A stretch of DNA of 43,952 nt from a virus. Where the stretch lies: positions 1 through 43,952 of the IMG/VR virus record IMGVR_UViG_3300023442_000004. One strand, given 5' to 3'. Below, piece by piece: positions 1 to 43,952 of this stretch. A program made the position numbers and the translations under genes. Positions within the stretch are counted from its first letter, which is position 1. The number at the start of each line of letters is the position of its first letter. The notes under the pieces were generated by a model that saw only the letters and a list, made by a program, of their open reading frames with translations, searched no databases and was not told where the DNA came from.

Positions 1-127
1 AGCGGATCGAGGCCGCCCCAGGTCACCGGCAGCCCCAGGGCCTCGCCGGCGAGCTGGCAGGCGTCGCGCAGGGGCTCCATCAGGGATGCGATGAGCGCCG
101 CCTCGCGGATGGCCAGCTCCTCGCGCC
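1..127. repeat. 127-bp terminal direct repeat, left copy
   Basis: These bases are identical to window positions 43826-43952. The repeat lies inside the coiled-coil half of the Rad50-like gene, and joining the two copies keeps that gene in frame, so it marks a circular assembly. The length 127 equals a common maximum assembler k-mer, so I read it as an overlap artefact and not a biological terminal repeat. Confidence 0.95.
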
Positions 128-1556
128 AGCGCTTCGCCTCGTCGCGCTCCTCCTGGGCCTCCTGGAGCGCCTCGGTGGCCCGGGCCCTGGCCTTGGCGGC
201 CTCGGCCTGGCCGGCCAGATCCGTGGCCCGGTCCCGGGCGGCTCGCATGGCCTGCTCCGCGGCCTCGACCTGGGCACGCAGGACCTCGAGGTCGGGCAGC
301 TCCTGGGGGGCCTGCTCCGCGGCCTCCTCCCGGGCCAGGTCCTCCCGGGCCTGCTCCGCGATCTTCCTGGCATCCTTCAGGCGCCCCTCGACGACGCGGA
401 GGTCCTCCTGTGCACGCTGGGTCTCTCGGGCGGCCAGCTCCCACTCCTGGGCCTCCTTGGCAGCCGTCTGGGCCGTCTGGCGGGCCGCCTCCCCGCTCTC
501 CTCGATGCGGGCGATCAGCTCCTCCGTGGCGACCCGGTCGGCTCCTACCTCCTCGCCCACCTCCTGGTGGCAGGTGGGGCAGGTGCCGTGCTCCAGCGCC
601 TCGATGAGCCCGCGGAGCTTTGCCTTGGCGGCCCCGAGCTCCTCGGCCCGGCGCTGGGCCTCGGCCCTGGCGGCGCGCTCCTCCTCGCGGGCGTCTCGGG
701 CGGCATCCTTGGACCCCTCCGCGGCCTCGACCCGTTGCTCGTACCGCCGGTGGGCCTCGCCGACCTCCCTCTCGATGGATGCCAGGTCCGCGGTAGCCGC
801 CTGGGCGCGGTCGCGTAGCCGCTCGATGCGAGCGGTCCGCTCCCGAGCCTCGCGGGCCGCGGCTTGGGCGTCGGCCATCTCATCCGAGAGGCGCCGGTAC
901 TCCTCCTCGGCCGCAGTGCGGGCCTTGGCGGCCTCGTCCACCTTGGCCTGGGAGACCGCGGCGCCTCCGTCCGCAGCCATGGTCTCCGCAGTCTTCCTGA
1001 GCCGCTGGAGGGCAGCCTGGGCCTCGCGGGCCCACTCGCCCACCTTGGCGCTCGCCTCCTGGAGGGCCTCCACCGGCGGCAGGTCAGTGGCGGGCTTCAG
1101 TCGGTCGGGCAGGTCGGACAGGTCCACCCCTGCATCCCGGCCGGACAGCAGGGCCAGGAGCTGGCCTCGCCACTCGCTGGCGGTCATGGCGGCCACCTGG
1201 TGGGCATCGAGGTAGCCGAGGGGCCCGAAGACCGCCGCGGCCTCCTCCTCGCTGCCCCCGGGGGTCAGGGCGGAATGCCACTCGGCCTTGACCCCTCCCC
1301 TCTTGGTGCGGCGCCAGGCGCGGCGGATGGTCCCGCCCTCCAGGGCGAGATCCACCACGACGTCCTCCCCGGCCGGGGCCTGCTCGATCACCTGCTGGTG
1401 GGCCCGCCCCTTGGTTCCCTGGATGGCCCGGGCGATGGCCTCCAGCGCCGCGCTCTTGCCCGAGCCGTTGGGGCCGGCGAGCACGGTCACGGGCGCGAGG
1501 TCGTGGGTCGCTGCCTGCCCGCGCAGTCCGCTGATGGTGACGGTCTCGATCCTCAT
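1..1556 (-). CDS. Rad50/SbcC-like ATPase with zinc hook (N-terminal and hook part; continues across the contig junction)
   Basis: ATG at 1556 opens a frame that stays open to base 1 and resumes at 43825, ending at 43483: 632 residues in all. Walker A GPNGSGKS lies at residues 28-35. A long Glu/Arg/Ala-rich coiled coil follows, and a zinc-hook CPTC sits at residues 326-329 in its middle, as in Rad50/SbcC. The family uses ATP to hold and process DNA ends, usually with an Mre11/SbcD nuclease. No metallophosphoesterase partner is visible in this genome. The arms are much shorter than in bacterial SbcC of about 1,000 residues. The start lies 1 nt after the stop of the 402-residue gene, so the two are probably translationally coupled. 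The Walker B region is on the other side of the junction. Confidence 0.9.
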   Translation of the reverse strand, partial: MRIETVTISGLRGQAATHDLAPVTVLAGPNGSGKSAALEAIARAIQGTKGRAHQQVIEQAPAGEDVVVDLALEGGTIRRAWRRTKRGGVKAEWHSALTPGGSEEEAAAVFGPLGYLDAHQVAAMTASEWRGQLLALLSGRDAGVDLSDLPDRLKPATDLPPVEALQEASAKVGEWAREAQAALQRLRKTAETMAADGGAAVSQAKVDEAAKARTAAEEEYRRLSDEMADAQAAAREARERTARIERLRDRAQAATADLASIEREVGEAHRRYEQRVEAAEGSKDAARDAREEERAARAEAQRRAEELGAAKAKLRGLIEALEHGTCPTCHQEVGEEVGADRVATEELIARIEESGEAARQTAQTAAKEAQEWELAARETQRAQEDLRVVEGRLKDARKIAEQAREDLAREEAAEQAPQELPDLEVLRAQVEAAEQAMRAARDRATDLAGQAEAAKARARATEALQEAQEERDEAKRWREELAIREAALIASLMEPLRDACQLAGEALGLPVTWGGLDP

Positions 1557-1557
1557 G

Positions 1558-2766
1558 TCAGTCCTCCTTGGCGGCCGCGGCCTTGAGGGCGGCGGCGATG
1601 GCCTTACGGGCCCGCACGAGCCGGCCCTTGCTGGCGTCCCGGGCGAAGTCCTCGAAGTCGATCACGTCGAGCTTCTCGCAGACCTCCTGGAGGGCGCGCT
1701 CGTCGACAGAATTCAATTCCATCAGGCCGTTGAACACAGCCTGGCGGAGCTTCTGGTCTGCGTGGTCGGCGTCGGCCGCCGGCGGTACGGCCTCCTCCTC
1801 GGCTTCGGGGGTGTCGGCAACCATGCCACCCTCCTCGGCCTCGACGGCCGCGTGGTCCAGCTCCAGCTCGTCGGCATCCACCACCGACCGGTCAACCTCG
1901 ATCTCCACCCCGCGGGGGCGGTCCCCCCTGGAGACGGCCATGGCGATCTCGCCCACCCGGTCAAGCCGGGCGTCGGCCTCCATCCACCCGACCACAGGCA
2001 CCTTCGCCCGGGCCCGGTTGTCGTCGGTGAAGTAGATAGAGGCTTTGGTGCGGCTGATGGCAGGGTGCTTCGAGAGGGCGCGGCGATGGCAGATGGTGCT
2101 CGCCGCCCGCTCGGCGAACTTCGTCTTATTCTGGTAGTCGGTGAGCGCCCCCATGACCTCCTCATTGGAGGGGTCCACCAGGTAGCCGCCGACCTGGCCC
2201 ATCCCTGCGCTCACGGTCGGGAAGAAAAGGCGCGTGGCCAACTCCTCCTCGGTCAGAGACTGCTGGGTCCGGTACTGGATGGCCTTGTCCTTGCCCTTGA
2301 GCCACCTCGCCTTCTTGGCGAGGGCCTCCAGGAGATACTGCTTGGGGCTGTAGTCGAGGGTCTCGTCTACCGCTACGAGATTGCCGGTGGGCGAGCGACC
2401 CAGGGCGATCTTGCGGATGATGATCCGGTCCGCGGCGTGGCTCTCGGGATCACGGATCACGTAGGGATTTCCCTTCTCCTCGCCGTCCACGATGACGGTG
2501 GGCGGGGTGAAAACGTGGAGCCCGGCGATCTGATTGAGGGCCAGGTAGGCCTCGGCGGTGAGGCCCATCGTGGCGATCTCTCCGTTGCGCTTGCGCGCGA
2601 CGAAGATATGGCCCGCCTCCTCGGAGAGGACCTTGGTGGCCTTGACGCTGCGGATAGAGCCGTCTGCCCCGCGGCGGACGAGGACCTCCACGTCCCCGAT
2701 GATCACAATCTTGGTGGTGGGCGCGGGGCTGGCGGTGGCCAGCGCGGTTACTTTCGGCTTGCTCAT
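1558..2766 (-). CDS. 402-residue protein of unknown function, upstream partner of the Rad50-like gene
   Basis: ATG at 2766 follows a clear GGAGGAA ribosome site. I do not recognise the family. The N-terminal half is mixed alpha/beta with hydrophobic strands (residues about 18-30 and 80-95). The region about 120-270 is basic with conserved-looking aromatic and His/Arg residues. Residues about 300-350 are strongly acidic (Glu/Asp/Ala) and look like a linker. The C-terminal 50 residues are helical and Lys/Arg-rich. No metallophosphoesterase motifs (DxH, GDxxD, GNHD) are seen, so it is not an obvious SbcD/Mre11. Its place directly before the Rad50-like ATPase, with 1 nt between the genes, suggests a shared DNA-processing job; a single-strand annealing or DNA-binding role is only a guess. 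Confidence 0.8.
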   Translation of the reverse strand: MSKPKVTALATASPAPTTKIVIIGDVEVLVRRGADGSIRSVKATKVLSEEAGHIFVARKRNGEIATMGLTAEAYLALNQIAGLHVFTPPTVIVDGEEKGNPYVIRDPESHAADRIIIRKIALGRSPTGNLVAVDETLDYSPKQYLLEALAKKARWLKGKDKAIQYRTQQSLTEEELATRLFFPTVSAGMGQVGGYLVDPSNEEVMGALTDYQNKTKFAERAASTICHRRALSKHPAISRTKASIYFTDDNRARAKVPVVGWMEADARLDRVGEIAMAVSRGDRPRGVEIEVDRSVVDADELELDHAAVEAEEGGMVADTPEAEEEAVPPAADADHADQKLRQAVFNGLMELNSVDERALQEVCEKLDVIDFEDFARDASKGRLVRARKAIAAALKAAAAKED

Positions 2767-2781: not shown

Positions 2782-2979
2782 CTAGTGGGCCAGCTCTAGG
2801 TACAGGCAGGCTGCCAGCGCGATGGTGGCGGCCGCCAGGCAGATGGACATGATCAGGGAGACCCGACGCCGCCTCCGGTCCCGGGCCAGGGCGCGCCTCA
2901 CGGCGGCGGCACGGCGGGCCTGGGCCTCCTGGAGACGGGCGCGCCAGTGGTGATCGGGGTGTAGGTAGGTGGTGGTCAT
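2782..2979 (-). CDS. Small single-pass membrane protein, first gene of the leftward operon
   Basis: This 65-residue protein starts at ATG 2979, chosen over an upstream in-frame start because GGAGGAGG lies at the right distance. Residues about 10-40 are very rich in Arg and Ala (amphipathic or coiled helix), followed by a hydrophobic segment at about 41-61 with one Cys pair region and a short polar tail. The charge pattern predicts an N-in topology. No family is recognised. It is the promoter-proximal gene of the operon that leads into the Rad50-like, UvrD-like and ParB-like genes, so it might anchor DNA or proteins at the membrane, but that is inference. Confidence 0.7.
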   Translation of the reverse strand: MTTTYLHPDHHWRARLQEAQARRAAAVRRALARDRRRRRVSLIMSICLAAATIALAACLYLELAH

Positions 2980-2995
2980 GGGGTGTCCTCCTCCA

Positions 2996-3016
2996 GGCGG
3001 CGCAGCATGCGCCGCC
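2996..3016 (-). promoter_or_regulatory. Perfect 9-bp hairpin in the 5' leader of the leftward operon
   Basis: GGCGGCGCA and its exact complement are separated by 3 nt. The hairpin lies between the predicted -10 box (3029-3034) and the GGAGGAGG ribosome site of the first leftward gene, a few bases from that site. It could modulate translation or be a dyad operator; no U tract follows, so it is not a standard terminator. Confidence 0.5.
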
Positions 3017-3028
3017 CATCTGAGGGTG

Positions 3029-3057
3029 ACGCTAGCAGGTCTAGCGGGGGCTGTCAA
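3029..3057 (-). promoter_or_regulatory. Leftward sigma70-type promoter with overlapping operator element
   Basis: On the minus strand a perfect TTGACA (3052-3057) is followed by 17 nt and TAGCGT (3029-3034). The spacer plus -10 contain CCGCTAGACCTGCTAGCGT (3029-3047), which matches the element over the facing rightward promoter at 15 of 19 positions. The transcript would begin about 40 nt before the first leftward ATG. Confidence 0.7.
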
Positions 3058-4905: not shown

Positions 4906-5880
4906 ATGGCCCGCTACAGGAAGATCGACGTCAGAATGTGGGGGGATGAGCGCTTTCGGGGGCTCTCCCCGACCGCCAAGCTGCTGTGGGTCTACCTTCT
5001 CACCGGACCCGAGACCACCAGCCTACCCGGGGCCATCGTGGGGGGGCGGCTCCACTTCGCCGAGGTGCTGGTCTCCATCAATGCGAAACCGTTTGGGGAA
5101 CCGTTACCGAAACGGTTTCTGGAAACGTTCCTCGAAGCCTTCTCAGAACTATCTCAGAGGGGCATGGCGAAGGCAGATTGGGACGCCCGCTTTGTCTGGC
5201 TCCCGAACGCCATCAAGCACAACCCGCCGCCCAATCCGAACGTCGTCAAGGGGTGGGCCTGTCACTGGGACGAGCTTCCCGAGTGCGACCTGAAAACCGA
5301 GGCGTGGCACAGACTTAGAGCCTTCATGGAAGACTTCGGGGAAGCCTTTCAGGATGCCTTTGCGAAAGCGTGCCCGAACCCTTGCCGAAACGGTTCCCAG
5401 AACGGTTCCGGTAACGGTATGGCAAAACAGGATCAGGATCAGGATCAGGATCAGGATCAGGATCAGGAGAGAGATCCGGATCCTCCGCTTCGCTACGGAT
5501 CCTCGTCGACTCCCGCCGAGCCGGGAGCCGACCAGACCCCCTCGAAGACCCCGCCCTGGAAGAACCCGAGAACCGTCCGGCAGGTGTTCGACCACTGGCG
5601 GGAGGTCATGGGCAAGAACGGCGCCGCGAAGCTGACCCCCCTTCGCCGGCAGAAGATCCAGGCCCGTCTCCGCGAGACCAACGGAGATCCCGCCGACCTG
5701 CTGGCAGCCATCGACGGCTGCGCCGCCTCGCCATGGCATATGGGAGAGAACCCCAACGGCCGGCGGTATGACAGCCTGGAGCTCATCATGCGCAACCGGG
5801 AGAAGGTGGAGGCGTTCCTGGATCTCGCCCACCCCGCCGCGCCACCGATGGACATCGACCCCGAGATGGTTATCTACTGA
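4906..5880 (+). CDS. Phage replication initiator / helicase loader (O/DnaD-like)
   Basis: This 324-residue protein starts with MARYRKIDVRMWGDERF, the N terminus typical of phage winged-helix replication initiators. Residues about 1-110 form the DNA-binding winged helix. Residues 160-192 are a low-complexity linker with NGS repeats and a run of QD pairs. The C-terminal 90 residues (VFDHWREVMG onward, then SPWHMGENPNGRRYDSLELI) match the loader domain of many phage initiators. The DnaB-like helicase gene follows 13 bp later, as in O-P or DnaD-DnaB modules. The gene contains two clusters of AACCGTT/AACGGTT elements at 12-bp spacing, so it probably houses the origin, as lambda O does. Confidence in the class is high. 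Confidence 0.85.
   Translation: MARYRKIDVRMWGDERFRGLSPTAKLLWVYLLTGPETTSLPGAIVGGRLHFAEVLVSINAKPFGEPLPKRFLETFLEAFSELSQRGMAKADWDARFVWLPNAIKHNPPPNPNVVKGWACHWDELPECDLKTEAWHRLRAFMEDFGEAFQDAFAKACPNPCRNGSQNGSGNGMAKQDQDQDQDQDQDQERDPDPPLRYGSSSTPAEPGADQTPSKTPPWKNPRTVRQVFDHWREVMGKNGAAKLTPLRRQKIQARLRETNGDPADLLAAIDGCAASPWHMGENPNGRRYDSLELIMRNREKVEAFLDLAHPAAPPMDIDPEMVIY
5086..5130. repeat. Candidate origin iterons, cluster 1
   Basis: AACCGTT at 5087 and 5099 and its complement AACGGTT at 5111 are spaced exactly 12 bp, with a degenerate AACGTT at 5124. The first and third are extended to AAACCGTTT and AAACGGTTT. The cluster lies in the initiator gene. A/T-containing codons such as AAA, TTT and TTA are unusual for this GC-rich genome, which argues for selection at the DNA level. 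Confidence 0.6.
5388..5419. repeat. Candidate origin iterons, cluster 2
   Basis: AACGGTT at 5389 and 5401 and AACGGTA at 5413 are direct repeats with a 12-bp period. They are read in a different codon frame from cluster 1, so a shared amino-acid repeat does not explain both clusters. The cluster ends 9 bp before the GATCAG hexamer array. Confidence 0.6.
5428..5468. repeat. GATCAG hexamer tandem array in the initiator gene
   Basis: Six perfect GATCAG units (5431-5466) with partial units on both sides encode alternating Gln-Asp in the linker of the initiator. Each unit contains a GATC site. The array lies next to the iteron cluster and may act as an unwinding or methylation-sensitive part of the origin, or may only be a flexible protein linker. 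Confidence 0.85.
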
Positions 5881-7787: not shown

Positions 7788-7808
7788 GTGCGGGGCAAGG
7801 AGGCCGTG

Positions 7809-8123
7809 GTGAGCGAATTCGAGCGCATAGGACGAGAGGCTGAGGATGTAGCCGGAGCCCCGGCTGATGGGGCTCACTGGGAGCCCTTGGGCGATGGCGT
7901 GGTGGTGAGGCGTGATGCCCCGCTGGAGAAGGTGGGATCGATCCAGGTCCCTGGCCGGGCCCAGCGCCCCCCCCAGACCGGGGTGGTTGTCTCTGTGGGA
8001 CCAGGAGTTCAAGAGGTAACCCCCGGGGATCGCGTGCTGTTCGCCTTCCACTCGGGGCAGGACCTTCCCGGCGAGGACCTGCTGATCATGTCCGTGCAGG
8101 ATGTGATCGCCCGGGCGGGGTGA
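7809..8123 (+). CDS. GroES-like co-chaperonin (phage Cpn10, Gp31 type)
   Basis: GTG 7809 is preferred because AAGGAGG lies 5 nt upstream; GTG 7788, at a leaderless position, would add seven residues. After about 22 extra N-terminal residues the Cpn10 fold is clear: WEPLGDGVVVRRD, a mobile-loop region with a GSIQVP segment, TGVVVSVGPG, PGDRVLFAFHSG, then EDLLIMSVQDVIARAG. The segment between the GPG and PGD motifs is about ten residues shorter than in GroES, so the roof hairpin is missing, as in T4 Gp31. It likely works with host GroEL, probably on the capsid protein. No GroEL gene is present. The stop overlaps the next start (GTGA). Confidence 0.85.
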   Translation: MSEFERIGREAEDVAGAPADGAHWEPLGDGVVVRRDAPLEKVGSIQVPGRAQRPPQTGVVVSVGPGVQEVTPGDRVLFAFHSGQDLPGEDLLIMSVQDVIARAG

Positions 8124-24717: not shown

Positions 24718-27700
24718 ATGGGCCGAGAACTTGACAGGCTCGCCAGGCTTGCCCTTGAGGCAATCTCCAGGGAGCCCAAGCCCGGAGACACCGTTGAGGT
24801 GGGGGCGCCAGTCGGCACGTCTCCGGCCGACATCAAGGCCAGGCGGGAGACCCTGGAGTCAGCACGGCAGAAGATGGCTGTCGTTCGGACCGCCCAGCGC
24901 ACCATCCGCGCCGCGGCTATCACCGGGACGCCGCTGGTGGGCGCGAGCGAGGGCGCGAAGCGGGACCTGGTACAGGCCGCGCGTGAGGTGACAGACCGGG
25001 CGGGGTTCTCCATCATCCTTCCGGCCACCCCCGGCAAGCCACTCAAGGTCAACATCGACCCCAAGAAGTTGGACGCGATAGGGCCCGTATCTCATGCCCT
25101 GGGAGTGCTGAGCGAGAAGGATGCGGTGGATGGGCTGGCAAGCCTGGTCCAGATGCAGGACACCCTGCTGAAACGCGGCAGCGTGGAGGTGGCCCACGCC
25201 GGTCCAGCCGCCAGCACCCTCGCCCAGGACAAGCAGAGCTACCAGGAGAAGGTGCGGCAGTTCATGGACGTTGCGCGGAGTGCCCACGAGGCTGGGGCGC
25301 TGTCGGATGAGTTCTACGGGGACCTGGTCGCCAGGCTGTTCTCGTTGCGCCACCCCAGGCACGGGGTCTCTGCTGCCGTGTCTCCCGGCGAGATTTCCGA
25401 TCTCGCGGCCAAGATCGGGAGGCGCACCGCCATGGGGGCGATGAGCATCCTGGACTACGTGGCCCGGGTGGTGGGGGTGGTGCCCCGCTCTCTGGGGGCC
25501 GTCACCACCGCCATCACCGCCGAGCTCAACAAGCAGGCCAAGGGTGGGGGCGGTCTGCCGGAGATCGCCCCCCCTGGCGTGAGAGAGCAGGTGGTCAAAG
25601 CCGTCAAGCCCGTGCTCGATCGGGCTGCAAGCGACGATCCGCAGGAGTCGAGAGGCGCCGTTGACGCGATTAGGGGGACCTTGGCAGAGATTCCTTCGGT
25701 GGCCGTTGACGCAGCCATGGGTCTCTTCGACCCCACAAACGAGGATGCACGTCGGGCCTGGAACAGCGAAGCGCTCCCTGGACTGGTGCATGCGGTCGCC
25801 GCGCTGCTCACCACCGACCCGGAGCGGCGCCGCCACATCGACAACCGACTAGGGGCGGCGGCTGCGCTCGGAGGCTTCGCCCTGGACGTACTTGTGGACC
25901 CCGTGACCTTCCTGGGCACGGGGGGTCTTGCGGACAACACGGCCAAGGTGATCCCCAAACAGGCCGGAGAGTTTACAGCGAGATTCATCCGGTCCTCTGG
26001 CATTGACGCCGAGGTGGTGGTGGGCAAGTCCGGGAAGAGCGTGAAGCTCTCCGAGATGGCTAAGGAGGGGGCGGAGAGGAGCCTGCGGGCCGTGCTGGAG
26101 CATCCCGAGGGCACCACTGCGGGACTCCACAAGGCTGTGATGAAGGCGGTGGTGGACCGGGCCGGCAGGGCCGGGCAGATGGCCGGGTTGGCCCCTGATG
26201 AGGTGTCGATCCTGCAGCAAAGGGCGCGACACTTCTACCGTAAGGCTCTGGCGCCCGCCCTTGGCAGGAGGGGGCTCTACATCAGCCACCCAACAATCGA
26301 GCTCAAGCAAATAGGCGGTGTTCCGGTGCCGTGGCTCGGAGCAATCAAAGGGCGCGACCTGTTGCCCCCGGAGGCGCTTCGAGTGGCCCACTACCAGGTG
26401 GCCCAGAAGCTCCTCAAGGGTGGCAAGTGGGTGGATTCTCTGGCCCTGTCCCCTGATCGCAGGGTTCGGCTGGTTGGCAAGGTCCTTCAGCGGTCGCTGG
26501 GGCCGCTGATCAAGGCCAAGATCGCCGGGCAGGATGCCGTTGGCTGGGCCTTTGTCCCGAGCTACGACCTGCTCAAGGACGGGGTCGATTCGCTGCGTGA
26601 GGACCTGCAGGTCACCACGGCAAGGCTGGAGTCGCAAAAGGAGGCTCTTGGCAGTTCCGAACTCCCAGCCCTGGCAAAGGAGGTTCCGGATGAGGCCAGC
26701 AGGAGGGAGGCCACCTTCCTGGTCGAAGGCACCTCCAAAAAGCCGCTGAATGTGCAGCGCCCCCTGCCCCCCAAGGAGATGGATCGCGTGAACCGAGCCA
26801 TTCTCCAGGCTCGCATGCTCGAGGACACGGAGCGCAAGATTGACAGACTGGAGGCCGCGTTTCGGAAGGTGATGGGCAAGGAGTACCAAGAGCTGAAGGA
26901 GATGCTGATGCCTGAGAAGGAGCTCAAGACCGTGGTCCGAGACACGGCGAAGCAGCTCCGACTGCAGGCGGCAGAACCATCCGGCCCCGCACGTCTTGCA
27001 GAGGCCATCCGGGCGAACGGCGGCTTGAAGCCGAACGAAGCCGAGATGGAGGAGTTCTTCCGTGCCGTACCGCCGAATCTCTACGCCTACCGTGTGACCG
27101 CCGGCAAGCGAGGGGGTGCGTTCGCCCCCCCCTTCAAGGTCAGGACCTACTTTCGCAAGGGGGAGCTTGTCGGGAGGGGCGACAAGGCAGTCCCCAGGAT
27201 TCTCAAGCAGGCCGGCATCCGCAATCCCGACCCCTTGGATCTGCGAGTAGCGGCTTGGAAGACCATCGTGGGGCGCCTGGAGAAGGCCAAGATCCGCCCC
27301 GGTACGGTGACTGAGGCCAGACTTCGGACCTTGTGGCATGACCTGCACAGGCTCACGGCAGACCGGAAAGACGGTGAGGCGATCCTGGGAGAGGCGCGAG
27401 CCCTGGTAAGGGCTCTGCCGGAACGGATCCGGGCCAACAGCGTGCTCGCCGATGTTCTGGACGAGAGGGCCAGCCGCGAGTTGCTGGGGCAGGTCGAGGG
27501 GTTCCGCACAAGCGGCAAGGCCAGGCCAAAGACCTGGAGGCACTGGACAGACGGGGACGCCCCTGGGCTCAAGGTGGACCAGATGGCCCAGGTTCTGGCT
27601 GACGAACACATCATCCCCGATGCCTACCCGGCCACCCTGCTTCAGGCTCTTGAGGACACCCCTCTACGGGAGCTGGACCCGCTCCGCACCCCCTGGCAGG

Positions 27701-30108
27701 AGTGGGAGGATGACGCGGTTGAGATGCTTGACCGGGCCTTCGGCGGCGAGGCCTGGAAGATCAGCAAGGAGAAGGCGGCAACCCCTGAGGGTGAGGCCGC
27801 CCTTTGGGACGAGCTCAAGGCCACCCACTACGTCGAGGGTGGCGAACTGCTGGATCTGCGCAGGCGGTACAACAAGGCTGTCACCGCCGCAGAGGAATCC
27901 CTGGGGGTGACCTATGAGGAGATGCGCCGCCTCTTCAAGGACCCGGGGTCAAGGCTTCGCAGTGTCCCCAACCCCGATATTCCCCCCTCTCAACTGGCCT
28001 TTGCCGAGAAGATCCACCAGGAGTTCGAAAGGTTCCACAAGCAGGAGATCGACCGGTCGCTGAGGCTCCGCGGGGACGAGTTCGGATACACCCGGAGCTA
28101 CATGCCCATTCGCCTGGAGAAGGAGAAGCCCGAGTACTCCATCGGCGGACTGCTGGGGCATGGGTCCCCGGGAGAGGCCCACAGGATGCGCTTCCAGCGG
28201 GCCAGGGATGTGTACCCATCGGTGGCGGCGGCCGAGGCTGCGGGGGAGCCCGTGATCACAGATGCGGCCCTGCTGTACGGCATCCGCAAGGCAGAACACC
28301 TGCAGTTCATGGCGGCAACTGGGGTGATGGAGAGAAGCCTGAAAGACCTGGGGAATCCCTGGGTGAAGGACGTTGTCAAGGTAGGCCGGGAGCAGTTTGA
28401 ACGGCTGGCAGACCTCTATCCGGAGCTGGTGGACATCGCCGGCAAGGGGGTAGAGGGGTCGCAGGATGCTCTTGACGTGCTCCACTATCTTCACTCCAGG
28501 GGGGCCCTTCCCGCTCCCATCGAGAAGAAGCTGGGAGCATACTTGACAGTCCTTGACGATAATCCCCAGGCCCGCTTCGTAGAGTGGAAGGGGCGCTGGC
28601 TAGGCCATGGACCCAAGGGGCCGCTGCTTATTCCCGAGTCCGTGGCGAAGGCCTACGAGAGGATGGAGGCCCTGATGCTGGGGCCGGCCATCCCCAACAA
28701 CGCTTTGTGGGCAGCCTTTCAGCAGGGGGTGGTCAAGCCCTTCTTGGCGCCCATGTACAACTTCTGGAAGCTGTCGGTAACGGCCTTGAGGCCCGGGTTC
28801 CACCTCCGTAACGCCTACAGCAACTATTACCAGGCCTGGGTGGGCGGAATGGAGGACTTCCGTCACGTCTGGACGGCGCTGATACTCCAACGTCACGGCA
28901 AGGACATCCTCTTCAATCCTGAGTCGAAATGGGCGACTCAGTTGCTGGAGACGGCCAGCGGTCCGATCACCTACAAGCAGATCATGGAGCAGGCGGTGGA
29001 GGACGGGGTTCTCAACCGGGGTTGGATGGGAACCGACATTGTCTCCAGGTCGGAGCCCTATATGGACTCCCTCCGCAGGGGTAGGCTGGTGACCTGGAGA
29101 AAGAAGCTGGCCGCGAGCCCCCGCGAGGTGGGCAGTGCAATCGAGAACAACGCCCGGCTGGCCTTCTACATTGACCAGAGGATGAGAGGGGTTCACCGCG
29201 GACTGGCGGGCATGGAGGTGGCCAAGTGGCTCTACGACTACAAGAACGTCACCACCTTCGATAAGGGTGCCAAGGTGGCCGTCCCCTTCTGGATGTGGAC
29301 CAGGAACAACTTCCCTCGCTATCTGGAGGCGTTGTTCACCAGGTCCGGCAAGATCCTGGGCACGGTCAAGGCGTTGGAGGGGGTCGGGAATGTTGCTCAG
29401 AATCAACTCGGGGAGCTTGACCGCCGGTTCGTCTATCCCTGGCTCAACCAGAGCATGGCTGCACCACTGCCGGTGTTGACCTCGAAGGGCATGGAGGTGG
29501 CAGAGGCCAACGGGGTGCTGTTCCTGGACCCGGACCTGCCCCTGTCGGGAGTCAACGAGCCCTTTGACGTGTCCGGGCTGGGGACTTCTCGATGGAGGGC
29601 CGGGCTCAACAAGGAGTATTTCCTGAACCAGCTCAACCCCGTCTTGTCCGGCGCCTTTTCCTTCCTATCCGGTAAGGACGCTTTCAAGGAGTCCCCTACC
29701 GGTGCCACCGCTACCCCCGGATGGGCCACCCTCAACCCCGACCTCAATGACACAGCCGGGTCACGCCTGGCTCGCCTCATCCTAGAAGCGAACCCCCAGC
29801 TCGCGGAGAAGATCGGCATCCGCCAGAGCGGCCCCTACATCATCATGTCCAAGCGGAACCTTTACTTGCTCCGGGAGCTCCCCCTTGCTTCTCAGGTGGG
29901 CAACTTGCTACAGTATGGGCAGCGGCCCGTGCTGCCGAACGTGCTTGGACCCCTGCAGAGGCCTGTGGAGACGCTGGGGTCGCTACCGCTCCGGAGGGTG
30001 AATGTGCAACGTGCCGCCAGGTTCCAATCCCAGAAGGCGGACAGAGAGATTCAACAGGTTCTCAGCGACCTGTTCCAGCAGAAGCTCGGGGTAACAGAGC
30101 CCCGGTAG
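24718..30108 (+). CDS. Giant internal virion protein (1,796 residues)
   Basis: This is the largest gene in the window. It is predicted to be mainly helical and charged, with no lysozyme or polymerase motif that I can see. The C-terminal third is best conserved in style: aromatic-rich stretches such as FLAPMYNFWKLSVTALRPGF, NAYSNYYQAWVGG and VPFWMWTRNNFPRYLEALF. These resemble large internal or ejection proteins of podoviruses. It probably forms part of the ejectosome that carries DNA across the envelope. There is no strong ribosome site; the ATG at 24718 lies 7 nt after the previous gene. Confidence 0.7.
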   Translation: MGRELDRLARLALEAISREPKPGDTVEVGAPVGTSPADIKARRETLESARQKMAVVRTAQRTIRAAAITGTPLVGASEGAKRDLVQAAREVTDRAGFSIILPATPGKPLKVNIDPKKLDAIGPVSHALGVLSEKDAVDGLASLVQMQDTLLKRGSVEVAHAGPAASTLAQDKQSYQEKVRQFMDVARSAHEAGALSDEFYGDLVARLFSLRHPRHGVSAAVSPGEISDLAAKIGRRTAMGAMSILDYVARVVGVVPRSLGAVTTAITAELNKQAKGGGGLPEIAPPGVREQVVKAVKPVLDRAASDDPQESRGAVDAIRGTLAEIPSVAVDAAMGLFDPTNEDARRAWNSEALPGLVHAVAALLTTDPERRRHIDNRLGAAAALGGFALDVLVDPVTFLGTGGLADNTAKVIPKQAGEFTARFIRSSGIDAEVVVGKSGKSVKLSEMAKEGAERSLRAVLEHPEGTTAGLHKAVMKAVVDRAGRAGQMAGLAPDEVSILQQRARHFYRKALAPALGRRGLYISHPTIELKQIGGVPVPWLGAIKGRDLLPPEALRVAHYQVAQKLLKGGKWVDSLALSPDRRVRLVGKVLQRSLGPLIKAKIAGQDAVGWAFVPSYDLLKDGVDSLREDLQVTTARLESQKEALGSSELPALAKEVPDEASRREATFLVEGTSKKPLNVQRPLPPKEMDRVNRAILQARMLEDTERKIDRLEAAFRKVMGKEYQELKEMLMPEKELKTVVRDTAKQLRLQAAEPSGPARLAEAIRANGGLKPNEAEMEEFFRAVPPNLYAYRVTAGKRGGAFAPPFKVRTYFRKGELVGRGDKAVPRILKQAGIRNPDPLDLRVAAWKTIVGRLEKAKIRPGTVTEARLRTLWHDLHRLTADRKDGEAILGEARALVRALPERIRANSVLADVLDERASRELLGQVEGFRTSGKARPKTWRHWTDGDAPGLKVDQMAQVLADEHIIPDAYPATLLQALEDTPLRELDPLRTPWQEWEDDAVEMLDRAFGGEAWKISKEKAATPEGEAALWDELKATHYVEGGELLDLRRRYNKAVTAAEESLGVTYEEMRRLFKDPGSRLRSVPNPDIPPSQLAFAEKIHQEFERFHKQEIDRSLRLRGDEFGYTRSYMPIRLEKEKPEYSIGGLLGHGSPGEAHRMRFQRARDVYPSVAAAEAAGEPVITDAALLYGIRKAEHLQFMAATGVMERSLKDLGNPWVKDVVKVGREQFERLADLYPELVDIAGKGVEGSQDALDVLHYLHSRGALPAPIEKKLGAYLTVLDDNPQARFVEWKGRWLGHGPKGPLLIPESVAKAYERMEALMLGPAIPNNALWAAFQQGVVKPFLAPMYNFWKLSVTALRPGFHLRNAYSNYYQAWVGGMEDFRHVWTALILQRHGKDILFNPESKWATQLLETASGPITYKQIMEQAVEDGVLNRGWMGTDIVSRSEPYMDSLRRGRLVTWRKKLAASPREVGSAIENNARLAFYIDQRMRGVHRGLAGMEVAKWLYDYKNVTTFDKGAKVAVPFWMWTRNNFPRYLEALFTRSGKILGTVKALEGVGNVAQNQLGELDRRFVYPWLNQSMAAPLPVLTSKGMEVAEANGVLFLDPDLPLSGVNEPFDVSGLGTSRWRAGLNKEYFLNQLNPVLSGAFSFLSGKDAFKESPTGATATPGWATLNPDLNDTAGSRLARLILEANPQLAEKIGIRQSGPYIIMSKRNLYLLRELPLASQVGNLLQYGQRPVLPNVLGPLQRPVETLGSLPLRRVNVQRAARFQSQKADREIQQVLSDLFQQKLGVTEPR

Positions 30109-39889: not shown

Positions 39890-40095
39890 GGGGCCCTCAG
39901 CTCCCCCAGCATCTCCACCACGGCCTGCCGGGGGTCACGGGGGGATGAGTCGATCCGCCGCAGGGCCTCGCGCAGGGCTCTCTCCTGGGCGTAGCGGGCA
40001 TCCCAGCAATTGCCCTCCCGGGAGCACTCGGGCTCCTCGGGGTCGGTCGTCCTGGCTGCCGCGCAGGCGGGGCAAAGGGTGGACCAGGGGGTCAT
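39886..40095 (-). CDS. Small Cys-rich protein (69 residues)
   Basis: ATG 40095 follows GGAGGAGG and overlaps the ParB-like stop. Cys at CPAC plus two further Cys within 20 residues suggest a zinc site; the C-terminal half is a charged helix. Function unknown. Confidence 0.6.
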   Translation of the reverse strand: MTPWSTLCPACAAARTTDPEEPECSREGNCWDARYAQERALREALRRIDSSPRDPRQAVVEMLGELRAP

Positions 40096-41732
40096 CTCTC
40101 GTCCTCCTCCGGGGCCTCCGCGAGCCCCATGACCACCCTCAGCCGCAGCCACGGGGCGTGCTCGGGCAGCCAGTCGTGCTCGGCCCAGACGCGGGCGCTC
40201 TGCGTGGCCAGTAGCTCGACCAGGAGCCCCCACATCTCGGCCACGTCCTCCGCCTCCTCACCGGCCATGGCGTCGATGTAGGCCCGCATGCCCTCCCGGG
40301 GGGGCCGGTCGTGGCCCTCGTCGGGGATCAGCACGTCGCGGCGGCGGCAGACCGCCTGGAGCGTGTCGTGCTGGACCTCGATCAGCACGGCCCGCAGGAC
40401 CTCGGGCAGCAGCTCCTCGACGCGCTCGGCGCCCTCCCGCCGCAGGGCCTCGACCCGGTGGGCCAGCTCGGCCATATCATCATCGAGCTGGGCCTTGCGG
40501 CGTGCGCGCTCCTGCCGAGTCCGCTCCGCCGCCTCCCGGCCCTCCTCGCGGGCGGCCGCCCGCTCCTCCACGTCCCCGGGGTCCACCTGGTCGGCCAGGT
40601 CGGCTCGCCCCAGCTCCCGCATGGCGGCGGCCAGCTCGGCCGCGGGCAGGCGCATGGTGACGCGGCCGGTGGGATCCACCCACGCCACCCGGGGCACGGA
40701 CTCCGGGGCCAGCTCGTCCCAGGTGGGAGCAGCCGCGACGGCCGCGGTGCACTCCTGGCAGCAGTCGGACTCCCCGCAGTAGGGGCAGGTGCAGGGGTCC
40801 TCGTCAGTGCCCCGGCACTCCTCCTCGGGCTGGCCGCAGACCTCGCAGGTACCCGGCGCCCGCCTCGGGATGTCACTGGCCTGCTCCCAGGCCACAGGGT
40901 CGTCGGGGTAGCCCTCGCGGATGTCGGCCCCGCTGTCCCGCAGGTGCTGGAGCCACGCCTTCCGGTGCTGCTCCCAGCATGCCGGGTCGAGGCAGCGGTC
41001 GCCGCCTCGGGCCTCGCCCCACAGGTCCGGCTGAGCGCCGGAGCGAGTCCGGCAGACCAGGCATGCCCGCGGGCCGAGCGGCTGCTCCAGGGGCCAGGGG
41101 GCCTGGTCCAGCCAGCGGCAGCGCCGCTCGATGGCGGACCGGATCTCTCTCCGAGTCCAGGTGCGGGGCTGGTCGTACCGCTCGGCGTCCGGGCGGATCG
41201 CGTCGTAGGCGTCGTCCGCGGCCAGCTCATCCTGCCGCTCTCGGGGCAGGGCGGCCAGCATGAGAGCGCCTCCGAGGGGGATGCGGCCATCCTCCAGGAG
41301 CTGGCGGTAGGGCTCGATCAGCGCCTGGAGCCGGAGCCTGCTCTGCACCCACCGCAGGGGCCGCCCCAGGCGCTCCGCGATCTCCTCCGGCTCCACGCCG
41401 GCGTCCACCAGCCGGGCGATGGCGTCGGACTCCTCGACGGAGCTCACGTCGGAGCGCTGGGAGTTTTCGACGAGCTGGCACATGGCCACCTCGTCGTCCT
41501 CGAGCTCGCGCACCACCACCGGGACCGTGGTCAGGCCAGCCAGGTGAGCAGCTCGCAGGCGCCGGCCCCCGCAGACCAGCTCGTAGCCGGCGCCCTGGGG
41601 CCGCACCACGAGGGGCTGAAGAATGCCGAGCTGCAGGATGGAGTCGGCCAGATCCTGGAGCGCGGCCTCGTCCCAGCGGCGGCGGGGGTTGAGGGGCGAC
41701 TCGACGATGCGGGTGATCTCGACCTTCAGCAT
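40092..41732 (-). CDS. ParB/Srx-domain protein with zinc clusters (546 residues)
   Basis: ATG 41732 has GGAGGAGG and overlaps the helicase stop. Residues 1-95 form a ParB-type domain (NPRRRWDEAALQDLADSI, GGRRLRAA at 55-62, LVENSQRSD at 88-95), followed by a HTH-like stretch at about 115-133. A Cys set CLVC (224-227), C247 and C252 matches zinc sites in plasmid- and phage-type ParB relatives. A second cluster (CEVC 296-299, CPYC 316-319 and more) follows, then a long charged coiled coil and a helical C terminus. The family includes CTP-dependent DNA clamps and nucleases. No ParA is present, so the role may be regulation, repair or plasmid-like maintenance. Confidence 0.8.
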   Translation of the reverse strand: MLKVEITRIVESPLNPRRRWDEAALQDLADSILQLGILQPLVVRPQGAGYELVCGGRRLRAAHLAGLTTVPVVVRELEDDEVAMCQLVENSQRSDVSSVEESDAIARLVDAGVEPEEIAERLGRPLRWVQSRLRLQALIEPYRQLLEDGRIPLGGALMLAALPRERQDELAADDAYDAIRPDAERYDQPRTWTRREIRSAIERRCRWLDQAPWPLEQPLGPRACLVCRTRSGAQPDLWGEARGGDRCLDPACWEQHRKAWLQHLRDSGADIREGYPDDPVAWEQASDIPRRAPGTCEVCGQPEEECRGTDEDPCTCPYCGESDCCQECTAAVAAAPTWDELAPESVPRVAWVDPTGRVTMRLPAAELAAAMRELGRADLADQVDPGDVEERAAAREEGREAAERTRQERARRKAQLDDDMAELAHRVEALRREGAERVEELLPEVLRAVLIEVQHDTLQAVCRRRDVLIPDEGHDRPPREGMRAYIDAMAGEEAEDVAEMWGLLVELLATQSARVWAEHDWLPEHAPWLRLRVVMGLAEAPEEDER

Positions 41733-43483
41733 ATGGCCTCCTCCACGAAGGGGGAGGGCGCAACCGGCCTCTGCCCCCCTCGCCAACCCGCTATCGTCTG
41801 CGGGGTCAGCAGATATGCCGCCTCCTGGGCCCGAGTCAGAGCCACGAAGGCGAGCCGGCGCTCCTCCTCGCTTGCCTCGCGGAGCGGGAACCGGCCCATG
41901 GCCATGCCGGGCATGATCACCACCGGCCACTCCAGTCCCTTGGCCGCGTGGATCGTCGAAATCACGACGTGGGGCTCATCCGGGTCAGTGCGCGGCATCC
42001 GGTCCTGGATCGACCGGAAGGTCACCACGTCCAGGGCGGTCTCCACCCTCACGGCTCCGCTGCTCTCCAGTGCTGCCAGTGCGTCCAGTAGCTCCTCCAC
42101 GCGGCGAGCCTTGGTCTCCCGGAGCTGCTCGCGATAGCGGTCGCGCAGCCAGGGGACCAGGAGCTCACCTGTGTCGAGGGGGCCGGTCTCGGCCTCGCGT
42201 GCCTTGCTGATAGCCGCCAGGGCTGGCCCCAACTCGGCGGGCGCACCCTCGGCCAGTACGTCCCAAAGTCGCGCCTCCTCCTTCCAGGCTCGGGCTTCCA
42301 GGCCCGCCCACTCCGCATCGGCGAGGAAGGGGCCGGCGATCCCGTGGAGGGCCACGTCGTCCCCGGGGTTGGTCACCAGGCGCAGCAGGCGCAGCAGGTC
42401 CCGCCCGGGCTCGCTGGACCACGGGTCGGTGTCTCGCGTGACGACCTCGAGGGGGGCGACCCCGGCCGAGCTCAGGGCCTCGCCGATGGTGCGGACCTCG
42501 CGATTGCTGCGGCAGAGCACGGCGACCGTCAGGCCGTGCTTGTCGAGGCTGCGTAGGCAGGCGGCGCCGGTGATCCGGGCCTGCTCCTGCTCGTCAGCCG
42601 CCACCAGGGCCTGCACCTGGCCTCCAGGCTCACGCACGGGCACCAGCGGCTCGGGCCAGCGGTCCTGATTGTGGGCGATGAGGCGGTTGGCGGCCTGGAC
42701 TATCTCCGGCCGGCAGCGGTAGCACTCGGAGAGGGGGATGGTGGTCGTCTCGGGGTCGTCCAAGTAGCGCAGGAAGAGGCGCGGCTTCGCCCCCCGGAAG
42801 CCGTAGAGGCTCTGATCCACGTCCCCCACGGCAAACAGGTGGGGAGGGTCGATGGCCTGGAGCAGATCGAGCAGGAGGGGGTCGCCGTCCTGGACCTCGT
42901 CCACGAGGATGTGTTCGTAGTCGGGGCCGTGGCCGTCCTCCACCAGGTCTCGAGCGTGGCCGATCAGGCCGTCGAAGGTGGCGGCGTTGATGGTGATCAG
43001 CAGGTCCCGGACGGCCGCACGCGCCGCCAGGCAGGCAGAGCGCTGCGCTGCCGACCAGGACTTCGGCGGGCGGAACTCCGTCGCGACCACATGGGCCACG
43101 GGCACCTCCGCTCCAAGGCGGCGGATCGCCACCCGAGCCACATCCTCGTGATCGTCCTGATCGTAGACGGTGAAGGTCCGGGTGAGAGGAGTCAGGCTGG
43201 CGTGGTCGCGCACCCAGCGGGCACACCAGGCGTGGAAGGTCGAGATGGTCAGGTGGCGGCAGAGCCGCTCATCCACCGCGGCCGTGAGCCGGGCCCGCAT
43301 CTCCGCGGCCGCGGCCCGGGTGTAGGTCACGCAGAGGATGCGCCCCGAGGGCACCCCCTCCTCGAGGAGGGCGGCCACCCGCTCCACCAGGACCCGGGTC
43401 TTGCCCGAGCCCGGGCCCGCGGGCACGCCGATCCGCGGGTCGCGGCAGGTGACGGCCTGGAGTTGGGCGGGGGAGAGTTGCAT
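41726..43483 (-). CDS. UvrD/Rep-family SF1 DNA helicase (585 residues)
   Basis: ATG 43483 overlaps the stop of the Rad50-like gene. The SF1A motifs are all present: Q motif LSPAQLQAV, motif I AGPGSGKT (22-29), Ia CVTYTRAAAAEM, II VDEVQD (194-199), III VGDVDQSLYGFRGA (219-232), IV near SECYRC, V TIHAAKGLEW (510-519), VI RRLAFVALTRA (543-553). The length is shorter than UvrD (about 720), with a reduced 2B region. It would unwind duplex 3' to 5'. Direct coupling to the Rad50-like ATPase points to joint action on DNA ends or forks. Confidence 0.92.
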   Translation of the reverse strand: MQLSPAQLQAVTCRDPRIGVPAGPGSGKTRVLVERVAALLEEGVPSGRILCVTYTRAAAAEMRARLTAAVDERLCRHLTISTFHAWCARWVRDHASLTPLTRTFTVYDQDDHEDVARVAIRRLGAEVPVAHVVATEFRPPKSWSAAQRSACLAARAAVRDLLITINAATFDGLIGHARDLVEDGHGPDYEHILVDEVQDGDPLLLDLLQAIDPPHLFAVGDVDQSLYGFRGAKPRLFLRYLDDPETTTIPLSECYRCRPEIVQAANRLIAHNQDRWPEPLVPVREPGGQVQALVAADEQEQARITGAACLRSLDKHGLTVAVLCRSNREVRTIGEALSSAGVAPLEVVTRDTDPWSSEPGRDLLRLLRLVTNPGDDVALHGIAGPFLADAEWAGLEARAWKEEARLWDVLAEGAPAELGPALAAISKAREAETGPLDTGELLVPWLRDRYREQLRETKARRVEELLDALAALESSGAVRVETALDVVTFRSIQDRMPRTDPDEPHVVISTIHAAKGLEWPVVIMPGMAMGRFPLREASEEERRLAFVALTRAQEAAYLLTPQTIAGWRGGQRPVAPSPFVEEAIC

Positions 43484-43952
43484 CAGCCCACCACCTCGGT
43501 GGGCTCGCCCTGGTCCAGTCCGAGCCAGATCAGTCGGGCTCCGGAGTCGGGCTCCGCGCTCCAGCTCTCCATGATCGCGGGCACCTCCTCGCCGGCGTGG
43601 GCGGCCACCACCTGGTGGAGCAGGCCGCGCTCCAGGAGTTGGAGCAGCAGCCCCCCGAGGGTGCGCTGGTGGTCCGGATCCAGGGCCTCCAGATTGTCCA
43701 GCAGCAGCAGGCGGCACCTGTCGGGCCGCTCCTCGCCCTCCAGGCCGTGGATGCCGGCGAGCATTGCGGTCCACCAGATGGCCCGCTCCCCGGTGGAGAG
43801 TGTAGCCCAGGGGTGGCCATCGACCAGCGGATCGAGGCCGCCCCAGGTCACCGGCAGCCCCAGGGCCTCGCCGGCGAGCTGGCAGGCGTCGCGCAGGGGC
43901 TCCATCAGGGATGCGATGAGCGCCGCCTCGCGGATGGCCAGCTCCTCGCGCC
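43483..43952 (-). CDS. Rad50/SbcC-like ATPase, C-terminal part (continuation of the gene at 1-1556)
   Basis: In the circle this joins the frame at position 1. The last 140 residues carry the ABC signature LSTGER (528-533), Walker B-like LLLLDN (558-563), D-loop LEALD and an H-loop His in VVAAHAGEE. The residue after the Walker B Asp is Asn where the family normally has the catalytic Glu, so ATP hydrolysis may be altered. The stop overlaps the start of the UvrD-like gene (ATGA). Bases 43826-43952 duplicate 1-127. Confidence 0.9.
   Translation of the reverse strand, partial: REELAIREAALIASLMEPLRDACQLAGEALGLPVTWGGLDPLVDGHPWATLSTGERAIWWTAMLAGIHGLEGEERPDRCRLLLLDNLEALDPDHQRTLGGLLLQLLERGLLHQVVAAHAGEEVPAIMESWSAEPDSGARLIWLGLDQGEPTEVVG
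43826..43952. repeat. 127-bp terminal direct repeat, right copy
   Basis: Identical to 1-127; see the left copy. Removing one copy gives a circle of 43,825 bp. Confidence 0.95.

Follow-up and report, generated by a model that had tools for sequence, protein, structure and literature searches.

The window analysed here is the whole stretch of DNA under study, a virus record of 43,952 nt that begins and ends with the same 127 bases. With this 127-bp direct repeat at both ends the window closes as a circle of 43,825 bp, and the locus described below spans the closing point:

1-127, no strand assigned: direct terminal repeat, identical to 43826-43952; an overlap left by assembly of a genome that is circular or circularly permuted
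1-1556, minus strand: N-terminal part of a Rad50/SMC-like ATPase, running on across the circular junction (Walker A, CPTC hook, module HMM)
1558-2766, minus strand: p402, an orphan protein and the first cassette gene; candidate ssDNA-annealing/ssDNA-binding protein (PHROG 32428, HMM of relatives, AF2 model)
2782-3057, minus strand: 91-aa protein with a single hydrophobic helix, upstream of p402 (open reading frame; no family match in Pfam and PHROG searches)
40092-41732, minus strand: ParB-like protein with ParB_N and HTH domains and zinc-cysteine clusters, outside the conserved cassette (Pfam; TIGR03734 below cut-off)
41726-43483, minus strand: UvrD/PcrA-like SF1A helicase of 585 aa with intact motifs (Pfam, identity to cassette UvrDs, tree)
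43483-43952, minus strand: C-terminal part of the Rad50/SMC-like ATPase, with signature LSTGE and Walker B LLLLDN (43826-43952 duplicates 1-127)

The genes are tightly packed. A single nucleotide separates p402 from the Rad50-like gene (TGA C ATG), the Rad50-like and UvrD genes overlap at TGATG, and the UvrD and ParB genes share 7 nt (ATGCTGA). The initial annotation had described the genes as joined by ATGA-type overlaps, which captures the tightness of the junctions but not the form of all of them. Its proposal that the Rad50 gene continues at 1-1556 is borne out by a reading frame that runs unbroken from position 1556 through the junction to 43483 and encodes 632 aa; given the identical 127-bp ends, the gene is interrupted at the linearisation point only. 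The orphan and the small membrane protein that it placed ahead of the Rad50 gene are both present, but p402, far from being a bystander, opens a conserved cassette of three genes.

Close relatives of p402, UvrD and Rad50 were not found in IMG/VR and GTDB searches, and tblastn of INPHARED with p402 and Rad50 gave no match. The lead to relatives was a marginal match on a Clostridioides plasmid, which proved to be a second member of PHROG 32428 located 6 kb from another Rad50-like ATPase. Searching 399 genomes of the Clostridioides phylum for PHROG 32428 returned, apart from the starting genome (C. difficile CD10-165), two strong new members. In both new genomes a Rad50-like gene comes immediately after the p402 relative, and a UvrD gene comes next. 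A first scan of IMG/VR with a three-sequence p402 alignment yielded 26 viral records, all 26 with the order p402, Rad50-like, UvrD-like; the genes mostly abut or overlap, with one small gene or a gap before UvrD in some records. A second scan with a broader p402 alignment added five further records, used as hold-outs, and the same order recurs in all five, one of which (L187) has a G+C content of 62%. The initial annotation had proposed a Rad50-like/UvrD-like DNA-end module, an idea that stood to fall if these genes were never adjacent in relatives. The search for the same gene order in other phages and genomes places the three genes together and in order in 33/33 cases (31 distinct IMG/VR records and two bacterial genomes).

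The cassette is also diverse. With the window included, G+C content ranges from 29 to 68%, p402 identity falls as low as 27%, and the first 28 p402 sequences (again including the window) form 15 clusters at 70% identity, so that this is not one phage sampled repeatedly. The three proteins have co-evolved, their identity matrices being correlated across phages (Mantel rho 0.65, 0.46 and 0.74; 0/999 permutations). The exception to the full set is the plasmid relative (L085), which carries p402 and a Rad50-like gene, with no UvrD found within the 30 kb examined. Capsid and terminase cousins of the window phage, namely Arthrobacter phage Jasmine, the Manatee Spring records and IMG/VR loci L005-L084, do not have the module. 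Searches of papers, with subscription journals outside their coverage, gave no description of the cassette, and the literature that could be searched held no biochemistry for the p402 family.

In the window Rad50-like protein Walker A reads GPNGSGKS, the signature LSTGE and Walker B LLLLDN, with a single CPTC motif in the centre; Walker A, signature and zinc hook are of Rad50 type, and Walker B is without the catalytic Glu. A module HMM built without the window sequence detects it at 8e-15, the homology to the cassette family resting on the heads while the coiled coil is weakly related. Throughout the family Walker A is intact and the last residues of Walker B are D-N or D-D in place of D-E; the switch histidine is missing in most relatives and the signature is degenerate in a few. 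Together these features make ATP hydrolysis by the Rad50-like protein uncertain. The CXXC hook is replaced by a conserved C-x7-C (CVIxxxIxCxKD) in L092, L094-L119 and L160-L177, CPTC occurring in the window alone.

Assignment of the second enzyme as an SF1A helicase, made in the initial annotation, is confirmed by Pfam (UvrD-helicase, PF00580, 5.5e-44; PF13361, 4.9e-34). Over their full length the window UvrD and the cassette UvrDs of the two new genomes share 28-29% identity. In the tree built from UvrDs, a branch with support 100/99 separates the window and cassette proteins from eight other UvrDs, the window's own branch being long, and a cassette UvrD profile scores the window protein at 315.9 bits versus 259.2 for a control profile. 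The ParB-like protein has a different distribution. Its description as a zinc-rich ParB is sound (ParB_N 1.7e-26, zinc clusters present), but it is not retained alongside the other three genes: none of 28 other module-bearing loci searched holds a relative, on which ground we rejected it as a module component. ParB is a local addition, co-transcribed here and outside the conserved unit. It matches the PRTRC-type ParB model TIGR03734 at 4e-41 and 141 bits, below the cut-off of 278.6. The plasmid p402 relative (L085:10646-15963) adjoins E2/ThiF (PRTRC-like) genes, a possible second link.

The only family that p402 matches is PHROG 32428, whose function is unannotated (E 9e-41, residues 18-294); Pfam, NCBIfam, PDB and PADLOC gave no match, and an HMM of the relatives recognises window p402 at E 1e-57. 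Conserved positions of the family are G, N, P, Y, K and R (for example R220, R228, N78 and an NPY motif), with few conserved acids. In most relatives the C-terminal tail is acidic and its last residue aromatic, usually F (GEVKF, GGDMF); SSB-type proteins have acidic, aromatic-ended tails of this kind. The C-terminus of p402 takes two alternative forms, this acidic tail or a helical domain, the latter in the window, L100, L107, L108 and L118.

AlphaFold modelled window p402 with a pLDDT of 75 (core 85-90; AF2) and an extra C-terminal helical bundle, and the p402 core of a relative with a pLDDT of 86.8 and a pTM of 0.78. Both models order their elements as helix, beta-hairpin, helix, three strands, helix. 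The RAD52 SSAP fold consists of alpha1, a beta-hairpin, alpha2, a three-stranded antiparallel sheet and alpha3 packed on the sheet, and Red-beta also has an extra C-terminal helical bundle (PMC9870868). The predicted secondary-structure order of p402 is thus compatible with the RAD52 SSAP fold. Foldseek with the p402 models returned nothing under E 1e-3, and its matches had large rmsd; a local match to the phage protein A0A6J5PQ09 reached a probability of 0.99 over 85 columns (E 0.026). Among 23 p402 members no Pfam match to RecT/Red-beta (PF03837) appeared even at E 10, and Erf, Rad52, Sak3, Sak4 and Gp2.5 (PF04404, PF04098, PF06378, PF13479, PF10991) were not among the p402 Pfam matches at E up to 10. 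Alignment of p402 with RecT and Erf by hhalign was negative (probability 0.1-1% for RecT), a weak test since RecT against Erf was negative too. Membership of p402 in the RecT or Erf families was therefore not borne out by Pfam or hhalign. Context, the acidic aromatic-ended tails and the element order make p402 a candidate for a new ssDNA-annealing/ssDNA-binding family; within a phage recombination module its likeliest part, to judge by context, is that of recombinase or annealing protein.

In the relatives, integrases and repressors lie at a median of 3-7 kb upstream on the opposite strand, and DnaB_2 replication proteins, DnaB, SSB, RecU and HNH proteins, judged by median positions, surround the cassette and follow downstream. 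In diverse phages the cassette adjoins the replication genes on the same strand, and it occupies the recombination-gene slot of temperate phages, between repressor and replication genes. For example, a similar slot in Brevibacillus phage Davies contains genes for Gam, ERF and SSB, and Davies and the relative L105 have a DnaC-like loader in common.

No Metallophos (Mre11/SbcD) domain was found anywhere in the window record, as the initial annotation had maintained for SbcD/Mre11 motifs. Metallophos, RecT and YqaJ were likewise found in 0/26 relative records, each search being positive in control genomes, with the caveat that not every relative record is complete and that host-encoded nucleases could serve. 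RecT was found in 25/200 genomes of the Clostridioides phylum. The suggestion of a module without Mre11 is therefore supported by the window's own record and by 26 relative records. The accompanying idea that the orphan or ParB could be the nuclease finds no support: ParB is an ordinary-looking ParB_N and HTH protein, and the p402 family shows no PD-(D/E)XK-like, phosphoesterase or other nuclease pattern and no conserved acidic catalytic set, for which reason p402 was rejected as a nuclease.

We propose, with a probability of roughly 60%, that the cassette is a phage homologous-recombination module which replaces pairs of SSAP and exonuclease (RecET or Red, for example). The Rad50-like SMC ATPase would clamp or tether DNA ends or forks, its hook possibly dimerising through the conserved central cysteine pair, and the UvrD-like 3'-5' helicase would open the DNA, with unwinding in place of exonuclease digestion. 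p402 would coat the ssDNA so exposed and anneal it to a partner, giving rise to concatemers or to repair of broken phage replication intermediates. These biochemical steps, with the binding and annealing of ssDNA by p402 and a complex of the three proteins, are inferred; what the analysis shows is the identity of the genes, their conserved order and co-evolution, their place in the phage early region and the lack of a recognisable Mre11, RecT or YqaJ in the records searched. A bolder extension, which we advance tentatively, is that p402 may found an unrecognised family of phage annealing proteins working with a Rad50-like clamp and UvrD, in which unwinding replaces resection and no nuclease takes part.

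The main rival is a prophage-borne anti-phage defence, a Gabija-like pair of ATPase and UvrD with p402 as third component or sensor, which we consider unlikely and less likely than recombination. That SMC-helicase pairs occur in defence systems had been pointed out in the initial annotation, and the resemblance is real: the UvrD scores with PADLOC GajB models (8e-63 for the window, 3e-100 for the relative L109) and the Rad50-like protein has weak LmuB, AriA and GajA matches, that to GajA being N-terminal only. GajB models are UvrD models, however, which any UvrD will match; a TOPRIM/OLD domain was not found in the N-terminal 518 aa of the window Rad50-like protein or in the Rad50 of relatives, and p402 has no defence match in PADLOC. 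The location of the cassette, its strand and its conservation speak for a lytic recombination role: a cassette next to replication genes and on their strand in diverse phages is not in a cargo position, and neither RecT nor YqaJ was found beside it. We give a similarly low chance to protection of DNA ends or inhibition of RecBCD/AddAB, with the Rad50-like protein and p402 binding phage ends as Gam does and UvrD remodelling them. Phage Davies offers a precedent, its Mu Gam-like end-protection gene adjoining ERF in a similar slot, although a Gam-like domain was not found here and end protection needs no active-looking 3'-5' helicase. Such a function would be compatible with recombination rather than exclusive of it.

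Two further explanations appear more improbable still. A nuclease complex of the SbcCD/Mre11-Rad50 kind, with p402, ParB or a host protein acting as a nuclease that goes unrecognised, would account for the Rad50-type heads and zinc hook of the window protein, and a nuclease could be hidden where none is recognised. Against it, the few acids conserved in p402 form no catalytic pattern, those at family positions D140 and D148 are S and A in the window, and ParB is missing from the relatives. A replication-fork accessory module, active in fork restart or in clearing bound proteins by UvrD, would make p402 a specialised SSB and not a recombinase, in keeping with its acidic aromatic-ended tails and with the initiator, DnaB and SSB genes that adjoin the cassette; yet some cassette-bearing relatives also encode an ordinary SSB, and end and recombination chemistry is where Rad50-like proteins typically act.

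Taking the recombination module as the preferred reading, comparison with known systems brings out both likenesses and differences. Like the cassette, the SSAP modules of phages (RecET, lambda Red, ERF-Gam, Sak4) lie next to replication genes in the early region of temperate phages, and SMC and sbcC genes have been recorded in the vicinity of phage SSAP genes (PMC8093625). Unlike those modules, the cassette has a p402 that matches no SSAP Pfam family, and a UvrD helicase and Rad50-like ATPase where they usually have an exonuclease. Mre11-Rad50, SbcCD and T4 gp46-47 have Rad50-like heads and a coiled coil in common with the cassette, and the window protein has a CXXC hook as well; the cassette differs in having no Mre11/SbcD partner that we could find, in Walker B (D-N/D-D), in the C-x7-C hook of most relatives and in a length of about 630-750 aa. 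Gabija (GajA and GajB) also couples an ABC-type ATPase to a UvrD-family helicase with a similar UvrD score, whereas the cassette has no recognised TOPRIM nuclease domain, a third protein in p402 and a phage-core location. In Moorella phage MTATph1 (L157:1713-5840) a UvsX-like recombinase gene is followed by one small gene, then by the genes for a UvrD helicase and a 'partition protein'. This series parallels the arrangement of recombinase, UvrD and ParB in the window, with the differences that its recombinase is UvsX-like and that its partition protein has no sequence similarity to the window ParB.

Phage mosaicism is driven by phage recombinases, which are targeted by several defence systems and form the basis of recombineering tools; the known phage annealing families were discovered through similarity. 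If our proposal is true, the cassette would contribute a new annealing family and a new route to exposed single strands. The previously unannotated PHROG 32428, of which p402 is a member, gains here a conserved cassette context, conserved motifs and a function hypothesis.

The rest of the window is that of a phage, with structural genes for portal, large terminase, major capsid protein and an internal-virion-like protein, together with a RuvC-like resolvase and a DnaB helicase. Lastly, this 44-kb phage encodes a GroES-like co-chaperonin (7788-8123; PHROG 3188, 1.3e-9), a replication-initiator-like protein with a mid-protein run of Gln-Asp repeats (DQDQDQ...; 4906-5880) and an apparently structural open reading frame of 1796 aa (24718-30108).
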